Assembly: GCF_001202025.1 (NCBI RefSeq)
Contig: NZ_LGHS01000007.1
Coordinates: 1 to 46,081 of the forward strand
Length of the DNA: 46,081 nt
Source: Pseudorhodobacter aquimaris
GTDB lineage: Bacteria; Pseudomonadota; Alphaproteobacteria; Rhodobacterales; Rhodobacteraceae
Direction: 5' to 3'
Part shown: piece after piece, positions 1,281-30,630 of the stretch
Position numbering within the stretch: the stretch's first letter is position 1
Layout of the letters: each line of letters opens with the position of its first letter
Notes under the pieces: generated by a model
What the model saw: only the letters and a program-made list of their open reading frames with translations
Database searches by the model: none
What the model was told of the DNA's origin: nothing
Translations under genes and position numbers: made by a program

Positions 1281-3071
1281 GTGCATTTATCGCGTATAAA
1301 GATTGAGAATTTTCGGAACTTCGCCGACCTCGATGTGAGGTTGGGCGGCAATCTCGTCGTCGTGGGCGAGAACCGAGTCGGAAAGAGCAACTTACTTCAT
1401 GCACTACGGCTGATTTTCGATCCGTCCCTTCCCGATAGCGCGCGGCAGCTTGGACTAGCGGACTTCTGGGATGGGCTCGAAGAGCTCACCAAGGAGGACA
1501 GGATACGGGTCAGCGTCGAGATCAAAGACTTTGAAAATGATCCCGACATCCTAGCGACGCTCACCGACTATCGGCTCGATGATGATCCCGAAACCGTTCG
1601 TCTGACCTACGAGCTTAGACCATTAGCCGATCTCGAAGGCGAGCCTGGGGCGGCCGAGGACTTCGAGTTCATTTGCTATGGCGGCGAAAGCGAGACGAAA
1701 ACCTTCGGCCACAAGCTCAGACGGCGGATCACGATGGACGTCCTGCCAGCGCTTCGGGATGCCGAGAGCGACCTTTCCGTTTGGCAGAGATCGCCGCTGA
1801 GGCCGCTCATCGAAGAGGCGTTCAAGGGCGTTGACGCTGAAGAGCTTGCGGAAATCGGAGAGGTCATCGAAGAAGCGACGGCGAAGATCACGCAGTTTGA
1901 TGAAGTTGCGGCGCTCGAAGAAAGCATTGCTGATCTCTTCAAAGAAATGAGCGGCGAAAAGCAAGATATCCATCCAAAGCTTGGCTTTACCCCGACTGAC
2001 CCTGCACGGCTCTACCGCGCCGTGCGGCTATTGATCGACGAGGGTGAACGTGGGATTAGTGATGCCAGCCTCGGATCAGCTAACCTGGTTTTCCTCACGC
2101 TGAAGTTTCTCGAACTACGCAAACTCATCGAGGAAAATCACCGCGATCATACTTTCCTAGCGATTGAAGAGCCGGAAGCCCATTTGCATCCGCATCTTCA
2201 ACGGTCGGTCTATCGTCACGTATTCACGGAAGCGCAGGAAGGCGGCGCGCCCCTTTCGATTATTTTGACGACGCACTCGCCGCACATCGCAAGCGTTGCG
2301 CCCTTACGATCCATCGTGCTGCTCAAGGACGAAGGGGATAATGGAACGAAAGGCTATGCAACGCAGTCGATTAGGCTTGCGGCGAAAGAAGTCGACGATA
2401 TCGAGCGATACCTAGACGTTACACGCGCTGAAATCCTGTTCGCGCGCGGCGTTTTGCTCGTAGAGGGCGATGCCGAACGCTTTCTAATTCCTGCATTCGC
2501 AGAGGCCTTGGGCAAGTCGCTCGACGAACTCGGCATAACCGTCTGCTCGGTTGCGGGTACGAATTTCCGCCCCTACACTAAACTCTTGGTCGGTCTCGGC
2601 ATCCCGTTTGCTGTCATCACCGACTGGGACCCAAGGGAGAAGAAGAGTCCACTTGGTTGGAATCGATCCCTGCGGCTCGTCGAAGACATAGAGACGCAGC
2701 GTACGGGGGATAAGCCTGAAGCACTGATCGCAGAGCTAGACGATCTCGATGATGCGGATGAATTCGCCACGCGCTGTGAAGAATACGGGATATTTTCAAA
2801 CAAGAAGACACTAGAGGTTGACCTGTTTTCCGATGGTTTTGCCCCTGCAATTATTTCGGTCATGAACGAGTACAAGTTCAGTGCGTCGCGGAAGGAGAAA
2901 ATTGAGTCCTGGGAAGCTGATCCGACCAAGCTTGACGCTGAAGAGCTGCTAAAAATGATCGATACCATTGGCAAAGGCCGGTTCGCGCAGCGAATGCTCT
3001 CTTATATCGATGGCATCGCCCCTCCAGGCTACATCAGCTGCGCCATAGAGTTCGTTGCTGATCGTGTCTAG
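1281..3071 (+). CDS. gajA: Gabija anti-phage system protein GajA-like: OLD-family ATPase / TOPRIM nuclease
   Basis: A 596-residue overcoming-lysogenization-defect (OLD) family protein. Residues ~1-370 form an ABC-type ATPase. Walker A is GENRVGKSN at 29-37, the signature-like stretch is LGSANLVFLTLKFLELRKL, Walker B is FLAIEEPEAHLHPHLQ near 292-307, and the switch histidine lies in TTHSPH. The C-terminal third is a TOPRIM domain with VEGDAERFLIP near 392 and the metal-binding TDWD near 446. In Gabija, GajA is a DNA-nicking nuclease held in check by nucleotides and unleashed on phage DNA together with GajB. The start is the GTG at 1281: GAGG lies 6 nt upstream, whereas the in-frame TTG at 1269 has no such site. 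The stop overlaps the next gene by 17 nt, so the two are probably co-translated. Assignment to Gabija, rather than a lone OLD nuclease, rests on the adjacent helicase. Confidence 0.85.
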   Translation: MHLSRIKIENFRNFADLDVRLGGNLVVVGENRVGKSNLLHALRLIFDPSLPDSARQLGLADFWDGLEELTKEDRIRVSVEIKDFENDPDILATLTDYRLDDDPETVRLTYELRPLADLEGEPGAAEDFEFICYGGESETKTFGHKLRRRITMDVLPALRDAESDLSVWQRSPLRPLIEEAFKGVDAEELAEIGEVIEEATAKITQFDEVAALEESIADLFKEMSGEKQDIHPKLGFTPTDPARLYRAVRLLIDEGERGISDASLGSANLVFLTLKFLELRKLIEENHRDHTFLAIEEPEAHLHPHLQRSVYRHVFTEAQEGGAPLSIILTTHSPHIASVAPLRSIVLLKDEGDNGTKGYATQSIRLAAKEVDDIERYLDVTRAEILFARGVLLVEGDAERFLIPAFAEALGKSLDELGITVCSVAGTNFRPYTKLLVGLGIPFAVITDWDPREKKSPLGWNRSLRLVEDIETQRTGDKPEALIAELDDLDDADEFATRCEEYGIFSNKKTLEVDLFSDGFAPAIISVMNEYKFSASRKEKIESWEADPTKLDAEELLKMIDTIGKGRFAQRMLSYIDGIAPPGYISCAIEFVADRV

Positions 3072-4851
3072 TCGAGGGCTGTATCTTCGAGCCGCCGAGG
3101 AGCTTCGCCCGAATGAAGGCCAGTGGGCAGCGTATGAATCCGAAGGACACTGCGTTGTCATTGCTGGGCCAGGGAGCGGCAAGACGAAGACCCTGACCGT
3201 CAAACTTGCGCGCATTCTTTCAGAGGATGTGCATGAGCCGCGTGGCGTGGCCTGCATCACCTACAACAACGAGTGCGCACGTGAGTTAGAGCAGCGCCTC
3301 CAAACACTTGGCATCGAGGCAGGCGAAAGGGTCTTCATCGGAACGGTTCACTCCTTCTCCCTGACGCAGATCATTCTGCCCTATGCAAAAGTTGCTGGCA
3401 TGGGGCTGCCCGACGATTTCCAAGTCGCATCCAACCGCGAGCAACGCGGTGCATTGGAACGTGCTTACGACCGTATCATCGCGGAAGGAGACGATCCGCA
3501 CGCGCGCTGGAGGAATCAGCTTGACCGTTACCGCCGCCGTTACCTTGATCGCGACAGTCCCGAATTCTTGGAGACCGATGCCGTCCTGGCTGAACTCGTG
3601 CTGGCCTACGAAGAAGAATTGCGTGCGGCAGGGCTCATCGATTTCGACGATATGACACTACTATCGTTGCGCGCCCTTAAAGAGCACGAATGGCTTCGAG
3701 AGGCGATAAAGGCGAAGTATCCCGTCTTGATCGTGGATGAATACCAAGACCTCGGGCGCGCTCTTCACCATATGGTCATGGGCTTGTGCTTAACTACAGG
3801 TATCCGCCTCTTCGCGGTGGGCGATGTCGATCAGTCAATCTATGGCTTCACGGGCGCAGCACCCGGGCTGCTCCAACGCCTATCGGAGCGCGATAATGTC
3901 GAGAGCGTCAGGCTGCGCCTGAACTATCGCTGCGGCTCGGAGATCGTACGTGCATCACAATTCGCTCTTGGCGAAGAACGCGGTTACGAAGCCCCCGAAG
4001 ACGCTGCCGAAGGCACGGTCTATTTTCACCCTCTTCAAGGAAGATACGAAGCACAAGCCGCATACGTTTTCGACACACTTCTGCCAGAAGCATTGGAGAG
4101 GCATCCCGATCTACAGCTGGGTGATGTCGCGATCCTTTACCCAGCGGCATGGCTCGGAAACATACTCGCCGAAGCCGCCGCCGAACGCGGCCACGCGACC
4201 ATTCGAGCTGACAACCAGGCGATTTATCCGCGTTCCAGCCGCTTGATGCGCTGGCTTGAACAGAGCGCAACTTGGTGCTGCGATGGATGGAGATCAGGTA
4301 ATCCGCGCTTTTCGCGGATCGTGGGTGAAGCCAATAGGATGTTTTCCGAGGCCTTGCCGACCGATGCAGCCCGCATGGAGTTCCAGAGAACCCTCTTAAG
4401 GCTCTTGTGGGAACGGCGCGACAGCACACTTAGCCTTCACGACTGGCTGGGCGCGCTGCGGCAAGAGCTTCTGGTCGAAGTCTTTAATCGTTCGCGAACA
4501 CTCGTCGATGAGAGCGAGAAGCTTGACGATCTGATTGCAAAAACAGCGCCTGGAGAACCGCATGAAGGAATGAGTCTCGGCCAGTTTTGCGGGCATGGCG
4601 AGGGCAATAACCGCATCAACTTGACAACTCTGCACAGTTCGAAGGGCAGAGAGTTTCGGGTAGTCGTGATGTTCGGAATGGATGAGGGCGGCATCCCAAG
4701 AAAAAGGCCGAGTGAACGAGAGATCATGGAAGCGCGCCGCCTGTTTTATGTCGGGTTCACCCGCGCCGAAGAAGAAATTCACATTGTATGCACGAGGGAT
4801 AAAGCCTCGCGTTTTGCAGTGGAGTTAGCGAAAAGGCTGAACGAAAAATAA
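3055..4851 (+). CDS. gajB: Gabija anti-phage system protein GajB-like: UvrD/Rep-type superfamily 1 helicase
   Basis: A protein of about 598 residues with the full set of UvrD/Rep helicase motifs: Walker A AGPGSGKT (37-44), DEYQD near 227, GDVDQSIYGFTGA, NYRCGSEIV, TLHSSKGREF near 525, and LFYVGFTRAEEE near 563. In Gabija the partner GajB is a UvrD-like protein that senses DNA ends or unwound DNA and activates GajA. At ~600 residues it is about 100 longer than the well-studied Bacillus GajB (about 500, from memory). The start is uncertain: TTG 3055 has AGAG four bases upstream, and GTG 3064 is also in frame. It overlaps gajA by 17 nt, indicating a two-gene operon. No partner gene follows before the tRNA-Arg gene. 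Confidence 0.83.
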   Translation: MLIVSSRGLYLRAAEELRPNEGQWAAYESEGHCVVIAGPGSGKTKTLTVKLARILSEDVHEPRGVACITYNNECARELEQRLQTLGIEAGERVFIGTVHSFSLTQIILPYAKVAGMGLPDDFQVASNREQRGALERAYDRIIAEGDDPHARWRNQLDRYRRRYLDRDSPEFLETDAVLAELVLAYEEELRAAGLIDFDDMTLLSLRALKEHEWLREAIKAKYPVLIVDEYQDLGRALHHMVMGLCLTTGIRLFAVGDVDQSIYGFTGAAPGLLQRLSERDNVESVRLRLNYRCGSEIVRASQFALGEERGYEAPEDAAEGTVYFHPLQGRYEAQAAYVFDTLLPEALERHPDLQLGDVAILYPAAWLGNILAEAAAERGHATIRADNQAIYPRSSRLMRWLEQSATWCCDGWRSGNPRFSRIVGEANRMFSEALPTDAARMEFQRTLLRLLWERRDSTLSLHDWLGALRQELLVEVFNRSRTLVDESEKLDDLIAKTAPGEPHEGMSLGQFCGHGEGNNRINLTTLHSSKGREFRVVVMFGMDEGGIPRKRPSEREIMEARRLFYVGFTRAEEEIHIVCTRDKASRFAVELAKRLNEK

Positions 4852-28169: not shown

Positions 28170-28299
28170 GAAGCATCACGCGTAGGCTACCACAATCTTC
28201 ATTAATTTTCTGTTTAGGGCAACCAGAAGCACCAAGTAATATATGGCAGCCAGAGGGTAAAAAAAGGGCCTATATACTTAACGCCACCTCTTGAATCGC

Positions 28300-28915
28300 C
28301 CCGGTTCACCGGACACCTTTCGCTTCACTTCACGCCTACTATCGAGCGGGTTGTGCTGTGTATAAAAGTTCTGTTCGGCCTGCTGGCGGTATGTTTCCGA
28401 TGGGGCCAAGCAGGCGCCGGCGATTAAGCCAATCGACCCGGCAGAGTGTCGCCATTTTCAGGTCCTGCATGTTGCATCACGGTCCTTGACGATGGACCAA
28501 CTCGGTTTTGCAGAGGCCGTTCATCGTCTCAGCGAGGACATTGTATTGGGGCGCGGATGTGTCCGGGATCGTTGCTTTGACACCCTTTCCACGCACCGCA
28601 CCACGGATGCCGATCTGCTTTTTCAATCTTTCCACCGTGCATCTGGCCACCTCAAAGCCTTCCCGCTTCAACTGATGCCACGCCTTGCGCACGCCGTAGA
28701 CCTGTTAGTTTGCATCCCAGACCCGTTTGATTTCTGGGCGCAGCTCCGTATCTTGCTGATGCCGGATCGAGGCTGTGAAAGGGGCGGCCTGGCACACCAA
28801 GCGATGGTAATAAATCGACGGCGCAATCGGCAGCACCCTGCAGATCGACCCGACACCGCAAACAATGCGCTGATCTGCAATGAAGGCGATCATCGCTTCA
28901 GTGGACGGTCGAGGT
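28300..28915 (-). pseudogene. IS3-family transposase OrfB remnant
   Basis: Conserved pieces in order on the minus strand are MIAFIADQRIVCGVGSICRV, LPIAPSIYYHR, RPEIKRVWDAN, KAWHQLKREGFEVARCTVER, AVRGKGVKATIPDTSAP, then ETMNGLCKTELVHRQGP and PIGNIPPA. Stop codons and frame changes break it. Most of the DDE integrase core between TIPDTSAP and ETMNGL is deleted, so it cannot encode an active transposase. Confidence 0.8.
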
Positions 28916-28916
28916 C

Positions 28917-28957
28917 CCGCTGCCCTCTTGCGGTTTGACTTCAAACCGCAAGAGGGA
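28917..28957. repeat. Palindromic ~41-bp repeat, copy 1 (inside the first IS3 remnant)
   Basis: ccctcttgcggtttga (28923-28938) and tcaaaccgcaagaggg (28941-28956) form a perfect 16-bp stem with a two-base loop, preceded by ccgctg. It splits the orfA tail (ending LRKAPAYFAQ) from the LDRPLKR-like end, so it is an insertion. It matches copy 2 at 31 of 41 positions. Confidence 0.75.
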
Positions 28958-28959
28958 CC

Positions 28960-29195
28960 TGTGCAAAATAAGCTGGCGCCTTGCGCAATATCTCATTCGC
29001 TTGGGGGCAGCTCTCAAGCCTCCCTTTCAAGAGCTTTGATCCGGTCACGCTCATCGGTAGTGACGCCATCGCGCAGGCCGCTGTCTTTCTCGGCCCGTTT
29101 GACCCATCCGCTCAAGGAGTGCGAAATACAGCCGATCTTCGGGGCAATGGCCACGATCGCGACCGCCTGCGTTTCGTACGAGCCTAAAGGTGATA
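28960..29195 (-). pseudogene. IS3-family OrfA remnant
   Basis: On the minus strand GSYETQAVAIVAIAPKIGC, SLSGWVKRAEKDSGLRDGV and TTDERDRIKALEREA are recognisable IS3 OrfA sequence. After a stop and frameshift ANEILRKAPAYFAQ follows. The first ~35 codons are missing next to the element's left end. Not functional. Confidence 0.75.
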
Positions 29196-29249
29196 GTCTT
29201 TGACAAACCCGGGGCAATTCAGCCCACCGAGTGGTACAAATTAAGTGTT

Positions 29250-30450
29250 ATTGCGTGGTTTACCTTTGGTCTATTGGTATGATGCTCTTTGGTGCCGGTG
29301 GGCGGTAACCTAAAGCGCTATGTGGCCTGACCGTGTTGTAGTGTCGTCATCTCTCGATGAGGATATGTGCCTCACGCAGCGCGTAGAAGACCTCACCATT
29401 GATCAGTTTGTCCCAAAAACCTGAGTTGAAGCTCTCGCAGTAGCCATTTTCCATGGCTATCGCGGGGCGATGAACGCTGTTTTGGCACCAGGGCGCCGAT
29501 CCAAACGCACACCTTATTGGCGATAAATTTCGGGTCATTCTCCGCTGCCTTCTCGCGGTTTGCAGGCAAAGCGCGAGATGGCGATTTTTGTGTCTTCCGG
29601 CGGGCCCCGCAGTATGAACAGATCAGTCAGTGCGTCGACCACATATGCTGAATTGAGTTTTCGATTGACGCGGATCATCCCGTCGACAGGCAGGCGATGC
29701 TTGCACCGCCTAGAGGGCCCTCCTTCGTAAACCCATCAATGCTATTCAGCGTGCGATATCCGCGTCCTTCGTGGGTCCGCTCCTGAACAAAGTCATAGAA
29801 AAGACGTGGTTCGGATGCTCAGGCCGCAGCCGAACGCACGATCCGTCATTCAGCCAAAGAGGATTCTTATTGGGTTGTTTTCGCCAGAGTTTCAGCTCTT
29901 CCCGCCGCCAAATTCGCTACCGTTGCCCTCTCGGGATCTTGCTGCGCAAGGCCTTGCGGTACAGCGCATAGCGTCTAACCTCTTGTGTCAGTGCGATGGT
30001 GTTCTCGGTCAGCCGCTTTTCGTCCCGCAAGCCACAAGGAAGCTTGCGGCTCACATCGAACGATACGGCCCAAGTGTCCGGCAGGCCCGGCGCTCAGATG
30101 CGCCGAGAGCCTGCTGCACATGATAAATGCACTGACGGCGCCGAGAATGGCTTAGAAATGTCGCTGTGCGGACCTTTGGTTCCCCGCGCAGCCTCAGTGA
30201 GGACCACCTTGCCCAATATCAAATCCGACACTGCCCGCATGAGCCGGGTGTTCCAAGTCCCAAGCGATTTGGAGCGATTGAGCTGACCGTGGCTCATACC
30301 GCCATACTCTTTATGCCACCTATAATAGCTCTGAACCGTCACACCGATCTGACGCACAGTTTTCGCCGTCGACCTTCCTTGTCCTTGCAGAACATCAACT
30401 TGTCACGGTTGCAGCACGGTATCTTCCGGCTTGCCTCGTTTTCCAGCCAT
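29250..30450 (-). pseudogene. Degenerate IS3-family OrfA/OrfB transposase
   Basis: OrfA begins at ATG 30450 (MAGKRGKPEDTVLQP, then a stop). It continues as QVDVLQGQGRSTAKTVRQIG, VTVQSYYRWHKEYGGMSHGQ and MRAVSDLILGKVVLTEAARG. OrfB pieces follow in broken frames: RVNRKLNSAYVVDALTDLFI, then DPKFIANKV, MENGYCESFNSGFWDKL and ALGYRPPAPKSIIPIDQ. The catalytic block after LTDLFILRG is replaced by a palindromic insertion (29542-29582). Multiple stops make it inactive. Confidence 0.8.
29542..29582. repeat. Palindromic ~41-bp repeat, copy 2 (inside the second IS3 remnant)
   Basis: The sequence ccgctgccttctcgcggttt, then gcaggcaaagcgcgagatggc, forms a stem with two mismatches. It starts with the same ccgctgcc as copy 1. 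Two stem positions differ from copy 1 on both sides so that pairing is kept (T-A to C-G, and A-T to C-G). It interrupts the orfB sequence just before the ..NGPEFIA-type block. Confidence 0.7.
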
Positions 30451-30630
30451 TTTTTGCTCCTCCTGCAATCGGGATAAACATACCCCGGCGGGTGGACCAC
30501 TTCAGAGGGGGCATTCCACCTCGCATAAGCAAAGTGTATCTGACGTGACACAAAAATATCGTACTGGAATTAAACTTTCCAAAGTTAATTGACGCAGCAG
30601 GCCGTTTTTCGTGGAGAAATTATATAGACC

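Follow-up and report, generated by a model that had tools for sequence, protein, structure and literature searches.

In a 46,081-nucleotide stretch of Pseudorhodobacter aquimaris DNA (the window), short palindromes interrupt two insertion sequence (IS) remnants of the IS3 kind. We consider it likely that they are members of a family of palindromic, non-autonomous mobile elements of the Rhodobacterales, most of them 37–43 bp long, which have fixed ends and a variable stem-loop whose pairing is kept, and which move as single-stranded hairpins. Copies split sequences that run on unbroken in relatives; the junctions are precise to one or two bases, show no target duplication and lie preferentially 3′ of the tetranucleotide YRTC. 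The elements probably represent a new non-autonomous element of REP-like type with an unusually clear record of target and empty sites, the hairpin being moved by a single-strand enzyme.

Hairpins interrupting two IS3 remnants

A preliminary description of the window reported two palindromes at 28917–28957 and 29542–29582 with 31 of 41 identical bases, and both are present as claimed. The 20-base core that it proposed matches just these two places in the window with up to three mismatches (none in 100 shuffles). When 53-base pieces were folded, both copies were more stable than each of 200 shuffles, with z scores of −7.4 (copy 1) and −3.8 (copy 2). A stem of ~16 bp with a two-base loop had been assigned to both; a perfect stem of this kind can be drawn for copy 1, whereas that of copy 2 contains two mismatches (T–T and G–G). 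The two base pairs reported to differ on both sides between the copies (T–A/C–G and A–T/C–G) are visible by eye.

The surrounding DNA consists, as proposed, of two different IS3 remnants, and these run in the same direction. Remnant A (28292–29185, minus strand) is ISDsh1-like with a large internal deletion, and aligns at 76–79% DNA identity with ISDsh1 and plasmid relatives. Remnant B (29223–30521, minus strand) is another IS3 element, closest at 69% identity to an IS of Loktanella salsilacus, which has one uninterrupted transposase gene. Redrawing the borders placed the palindromes at 28918–28956 (w1) and 29543–29581 (w2), 39 bp each on the plus strand, the adjoining base belonging to the target. 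The w1 palindrome sits by the orfA/orfB junction of remnant A, in agreement with its earlier placement near the end of orfA, and ISDsh1 itself (locus L013) is uninterrupted here. Judged by eye from the alignment, the w2 palindrome separates the S codon from the D codon in the SDNG block of orfB; it had been located in the catalytic block of this frame. It is absent from three relatives, namely those of Loktanella and Tritonibacter, in which a single annotated transposase gene runs uninterrupted, and that of Marinovum, a copy annotated in pieces. Because relatives of both remnants are without w1 or w2, the hairpins are additions to the IS DNA rather than parts of it.

One further element in remnant B, and a probable second one, had been overlooked. 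For searches we used two models, R1, built from four copies, and R2, built from 67 copies of a 42-nt class. The third element (w3; 29926–29966, minus strand) belongs to this common class, is partly decayed and adjoins sequence missing from remnant B; it scores 28.7 bits with R2 (E = 4.5e-6, filters off; E = 0.0068 in the whole genome). A probable fourth and degenerate member (w4; 29681–29717, plus strand) is an insertion relative to the same three relatives, with an R1 score of 6.7 bits (E of about 1). With R1, w1 reaches E = 0.011 (filters off) and w2 reaches E = 0.54. At 30160–30179, a further ~20 bases of remnant B are missing in the same three relatives.

A Sulfitobacter plasmid and contig 46 of the P. 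aquimaris genome itself have other hairpins at the site of w1, the ends being shared and the stems different. At least six such hairpins are found inside ~1.2 kb of one ISDsh1-like remnant in contig 46. In the Sulfitobacter locus (L014), an Rfam match to the ALIL frameshift pseudoknot (870–976) abuts the element (973–1010); ALIL also matches at L006:1711–1906, and the insertion site is common to the w1, contig 46 and Sulfitobacter copies. Over eight loci, the element is matched by no Rfam family that reaches its gathering score; the ALIL match falls on the IS3 frameshift region. Copies of several species lie within a few bases of each other in this region, which may be a hot spot. A Ruegeria sp. 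PR1b plasmid (L012, alignment columns 970–1025) has a different hairpin-like insertion at the w1 site, in which the family ends are absent.

Near-precise junctions beside YRTC

We fused the flanks of 179 copies and compared the joined sequences with all fetched loci. Of the 179, 126 aligned across the junction, and in 112 of the 126 the alignment is that expected of a near-precise insertion with no target duplication. The best-hit net difference was +1 in 85 cases, +2 in 17, 0 in 10 and another value in 14; the last do not fit, and five of them, showing 9 or 10, are probably self-matches. A net difference of mostly +1 means that the inserted unit is the model match shortened by roughly one base. 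In 26 of 42 clean cases the final base is the same as that of the target, leaving one base of doubt at the 3′ border. Identity reached 90% or more in only 7 of the 112 fitting empty-site pairs.

These junctions bear on whether the hairpin is a miniature inverted-repeat element (MITE) of some DDE transposon. A symmetric copy at L067:2136–2177 does have perfect inverted ends, which speaks for such an origin. In the common form, however, the two ends do not make up inverted repeats along their length, the net difference is +1 at 85 of 126 junctions, and the joined-flank alignments show no target duplication of the usual MITE kind. We therefore regard this origin as improbable. The preliminary view of a small mobile hairpin, REP- or MITE-like, stands as regards inserted DNA, many copies and a REP-like size and shape, but not as regards a Y1 transposase (see below) or MITE-type duplication.

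YRTC stands directly left of 62 of 166 distinct junctions, compared with a background of 1.8% in the flanks (p = 3e-63), CATC being the commonest version; the other 104 junctions are without it. The 166 are the 179 copies minus eight matches shorter than 37 nt, the Kitasatospora copy (L152) and repeats with the same 12-base flanks. As copies at homologous sites are not independent, we repeated the count on single representatives: YRTC stands at 45 or more of 115 junctions when each homologous site is represented once (p = 2e-47), and at 22 or more of 60 when copies with any similarity between their flanks are grouped and each group is represented once (p = 3e-23). The motif is likewise found in 29 of 101 element-free homologues (p = 1e-26). 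Since the letters already stand in homologues without the element, YRTC is the target rather than a part of the inserted unit. Left of the window copies are GTCC (w1), TCTC (w2; TGTC in relatives), TATG (w3) and ATCC (w4), so that only w2 fits YRTC, and only by the letters of its relatives. Relatives with whole transposase genes are without the element, and the direction of change would thus be insertion and not precise loss.

Fixed ends and a variable stem that stays paired

The common form reads CRYTGCC-C-GGCA-[variable stem-loop]-GAGAGGG and is mostly 37–43 bp long. When it is folded, CCC and GGG form base pairs, GGCA and GAGA lie opposite each other in an internal loop, and the sequence of the inner stem differs between copies. 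Since either the ends or the models served to find the copies, the conservation of the ends is partly built in. We analysed covariation in two length classes, whose aligned copies had been picked with a structure model. The 38-nt class (39 copies; 3 of the 42 copies of this length were left out, namely a symmetric copy in L067 and those in L116 and L172, which did not seem clear copies) has 95.4% of pair cells paired and 55 both-side changes, compared with 12.5 in shuffles. In the 42-nt class (67 copies), 97.3% are paired, with 96 both-side changes compared with 23 in shuffles and 25 distinct 5′ arms; two of five covariation measures were reached by some shuffles (9 of 500 and 57 of 500). Because of the structure-based picking, we repeated the test on copies chosen by their ends only (70 distinct gaps, 66 loci). 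These have a mean of 3.11 consecutive basal pairs, compared with 1.05 when arms were swapped (maximum 1.53 in 500 swaps).

The 42-nt class also carries a bulged base on the 3′ side, which is T in 59 of 67 copies and in 52 of 57 clear cases. This bulged T is absent from the 38-nt class and from the 40-nt copies inspected. An alternative 5′ hairpin, pairing CRYTGCC with GGCARYG, has 85.3% of cells paired, and its covariation score and double-change cells exceed those of all 500 shuffles; the number of its pairs with both-side changes was reached by 440 of 500 shuffles, and 15 of 39 copies lack pairing at its outermost position.

Boxes, an internal loop, an extrahelical base and a variable stem are features of attC sites. 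A tyrosine recombinase, attC- or Xer-like, could accordingly recombine the folded single strand by recognizing its shape. The element resembles this architecture (PMC2727003), and its fixed ends around a variable, pair-kept stem also speak for such a route. Against it, no attC-like core is seen by eye in the consensus, and only the hairpin is inserted, unaccompanied by a cassette; we judge this route rather unlikely.

Symmetric variants, in which TCTC-like letters replace GGCA, comprise w1, w2 and places in loci L067 and L076. In w1 and w2, the 5′ GGCA arm may have been rewritten later by template switching to match the 3′ GAGA arm, yielding a near-perfect palindrome. The palindrome of a symmetric copy at L067:2130–2185 extends into both flanks, forming a near-perfect inverted repeat of ~50 bp. 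Four copies form a 35-nt subclass with a GGCGGC..GCCGCC-like stem and a common AAAATA-like left flank (L097:7539, L138:4632, L146:1353 and L166:960), three of them in Leisingera; this subclass perhaps reflects terminator-like reuse.

Copies across the Rhodobacterales

In the P. aquimaris genome, R1 matches 27 places and R2 matches 26 at E ≤ 0.01, with a union of at least 49 places among the best 150 of ~2,000–4,000 candidates scored in each search, so that further copies may have been missed. A single multi-copy IS accounts, through its repeats, for a large part of the 49. The expectation that the genome holds further copies is thus borne out here and in relatives. The consensus proposed for such a search performed poorly, returning only the two original copies and two places with three mismatches (four in total, compared with three for a reversed control), and a 53-base query of copy 1 matched nothing in plasmids. 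The consensus finds few places because both of its source copies are atypical symmetric variants; w1 and w2 also score poorly with the models, and the 49-place union includes w3 but not w1, w2 or w4.

All nine genomes of the genus that were searched match at E = 0.01 (own genome included), one of them, a four-contig assembly (G007), at 42 places. At E = 0.001, at least 8 of 61 genomes of the family and at least 3 of 142 of the class match, again with the own genome included; these are lower bounds, as the wider searches used stricter filters and a narrow model. A two-end pattern recovered at least 120 stretches from public genomes, 80 of which we took as loci. Among the 80 listed, 76 bear Rhodobacterales names, counting some genera that we take to belong to this order; the remaining four come from Labrenzia, Kitasatospora and two alphaproteobacterial bins of no assigned place. 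Two or more elements occur in 30 of the 80 loci.

Host sequences and passenger spread

Host DNA was sampled as 40 open pieces, two beside each of 20 elements; the list of 40 of the 80 loci was shuffled and its first 20 entries were used. Transposase or integrase-core domains lie beside 13 of the 20 elements, two of these matches (L141 and L163) being below the Pfam cut-off. They include IS66, rve, several DDE, IS110 and Mutator families. Apart from these, Pfam gave only helix-turn-helix domains on two of the loci with a transposase and, in L163, a match to an antitoxin domain below threshold; 7 of the 20 sampled elements have no Pfam match beside them. In ten plasmid regions, hand-picked from the listed matches, seven elements lie outside the listed genes, two within fragments of transposase genes and one within a hypothetical gene, according to a gene table that is incomplete and omits pseudogenes. 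Broken transposase genes belonging to several kinds of IS thus harbour elements in these samples, often with more than one per locus. Insertion into transposase genes, as suggested in the preliminary description, is frequent in the samples, and may reflect either a preference for them or mere survival there.

Rickettsia palindromic elements (RPEs) insert in frame in genes, and the same could be proposed for the hairpins. One case fits: in the P. aquimaris genome, a 219-residue open frame with an rve domain, belonging to a multi-copy element, runs through a copy (PLTVCLQTVAGQR). This copy lies near the end of the transposase, and the same hairpin occurs at ~10 places, mostly near contig ends. 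The net length (match length less one) is divisible by three in only 24 of 179 copies, so that most would shift the frame, and the sampled hosts are mostly broken genes. Both disfavour an RPE-type origin, which we consider very improbable.

Multi-copy IS elements of the P. aquimaris genome (L021, L024, L028 and L049), found at many contig ends, carry one or several hairpins, and related IS copies have several of them. As some elements sit in IS that have themselves multiplied, they also travel as passengers.

Search for a mobilizing enzyme

The REP-like shape had suggested a REP-associated tyrosine transposase (RAYT), yet no Y1 domain (PF01797) was found in the P. aquimaris genome. Y1 was found in one of nine genomes of the genus, as a weak match, and not in G007 in spite of its 42 element matches. 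Of 61 genomes of the family, 6 gave Y1 matches, namely two of eight element carriers (G015 and G063) and 4 of 53 non-carriers, a small apparent trend; G015 combines 19 element matches with a full-length Y1 gene. Five stretches around Y1 matches (5 of 27; one each in G015, G052 and G002 and two in G063) contain no element at E = 0.1.

A classical REP, moved by a RAYT since lost from the P. aquimaris genome, is one alternative. Size, hairpin, clusters and an unpaired foot next to the stem are in keeping with it, as is the trend among carriers. The foot, however, is GGCA and not GTAG or GTGG, G007 is without Y1, and the five Y1 stretches, from four genomes, are without the element. Movement by a RAYT is not supported by these searches, and we hold it to be unlikely.

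We favour instead a route in which the element would fold as a single-stranded hairpin and be handled in trans by an HUH-type or similar single-strand nuclease, by analogy with the ends of REPs and IS200/IS605. The hairpin would then go in 3′ of YRTC, near-precisely and with no target duplication. This reading rests on near-precise insertion by a tetranucleotide, the lack of duplication, a hairpin with an unpaired base and a fixed foot tetranucleotide. Since Y1 matches are scarce and none of the five examined has the element beside it, a single-stranded route would probably depend on an enzyme other than Y1 or on one acting from outside. A guide role for GGCA is not a clean fit, as its pairing partner is TGCC of the element itself and not YRTC. 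More tentatively, the element may be a minimal Rhodobacterales mobile hairpin, ~40 nt long and geneless, which a single-strand enzyme of the host or of a phage would place next to YRTC, recognizing its shape and fixed ends.

Comparison with known systems

More than 100 copies have an element-free homologue, from which the borders, the target and the absence of duplication can be read directly, making a search for the mobilizer possible. For annotation, the hairpins are a cause of interrupted transposase genes in a large bacterial order. Among the papers listed in our literature searches, which mostly left out subscription papers, none was seen to describe these elements.

The closest parallels are among REPs, which may be non-autonomous mobile DNA (PMC8266576, PMC3733652, PMC3116915). 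GTAG REPs are defined by a GTAG or GTGG tetranucleotide 0–2 nt 5′ of the stem (PMC6006769). Like GTAG REPs and REPINs with their RAYT (TnpA_REP), the present elements are palindromes of 20–40 bp with a fixed unpaired foot 5′ of the stem and many copies. They differ in the foot, which is GGCA or a close variant in the 39- and 67-copy alignments, in that no Y1 was found in the own genome and few in carriers, and in their frequent position inside transposase genes. For both REP and IS608, a guide tetranucleotide and unpaired stem bases are described, and E. coli REP makes little demand on the loop sequence (PMC8266576, PMC6006769). The hairpin shares with the IS200/IS605 ends, as in IS608, the unpaired base, a tetranucleotide 5′ of the foot and, by a strong though partial preference (62 of 166 junctions), insertion by a target tetranucleotide (PMC6006769, PMC8266576); it differs in being a single hairpin of ~40 bp with no tnpA. 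Rickettsia palindromic elements are similar as small palindromes inside genes, and dissimilar in that lengths here are mostly frame-breaking.

Palindromic repeats without a dedicated transposase are known, and their manner of movement is described as an open question (PMC3733652). Among them, the CGTC-tagged REPs are mainly alphaproteobacterial, stated for all alphaproteobacterial orders, and include the Neisseria dRS3 and Rickettsia RPE-4/6 elements (PMC3733652). Their tag is often TGTC or CCTC, and their definition includes a stem of 8–9 bp beginning with AT and a CCA-like tail (PMC3733652). As all alphaproteobacterial orders are said to carry them, Rhodobacterales by implication, a related repeat may already have been described. 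The main text of PMC3733652, its species-listing Figure 2 apart, contains none of ten genus or group names, among them Rhodobacter, Ruegeria, Roseobacter, Dinoroseobacter, Paracoccus, Phaeobacter, Jannaschia and Silicibacter. The elements described here resemble CGTC REPs in being alphaproteobacterial and without a dedicated transposase, and the TGTC/CCTC tag is close to YRTC. They are unlike CGTC REPs in that the stem base varies (GGG, GTG, GGC, GCG and others), the 3′ end is GAGAGGG with no CCA tail and an internal loop is added. As regards an unpaired CGTC-like tag, YRTC precedes 62 of 166 copies and also stands in element-free homologues, as a target would. Should the minimal mobile hairpin proposed above be correct, the CGTC/TGTC tags on transposase-less palindromes elsewhere might likewise be pre-existing target sites, which would explain the spread of this superfamily.
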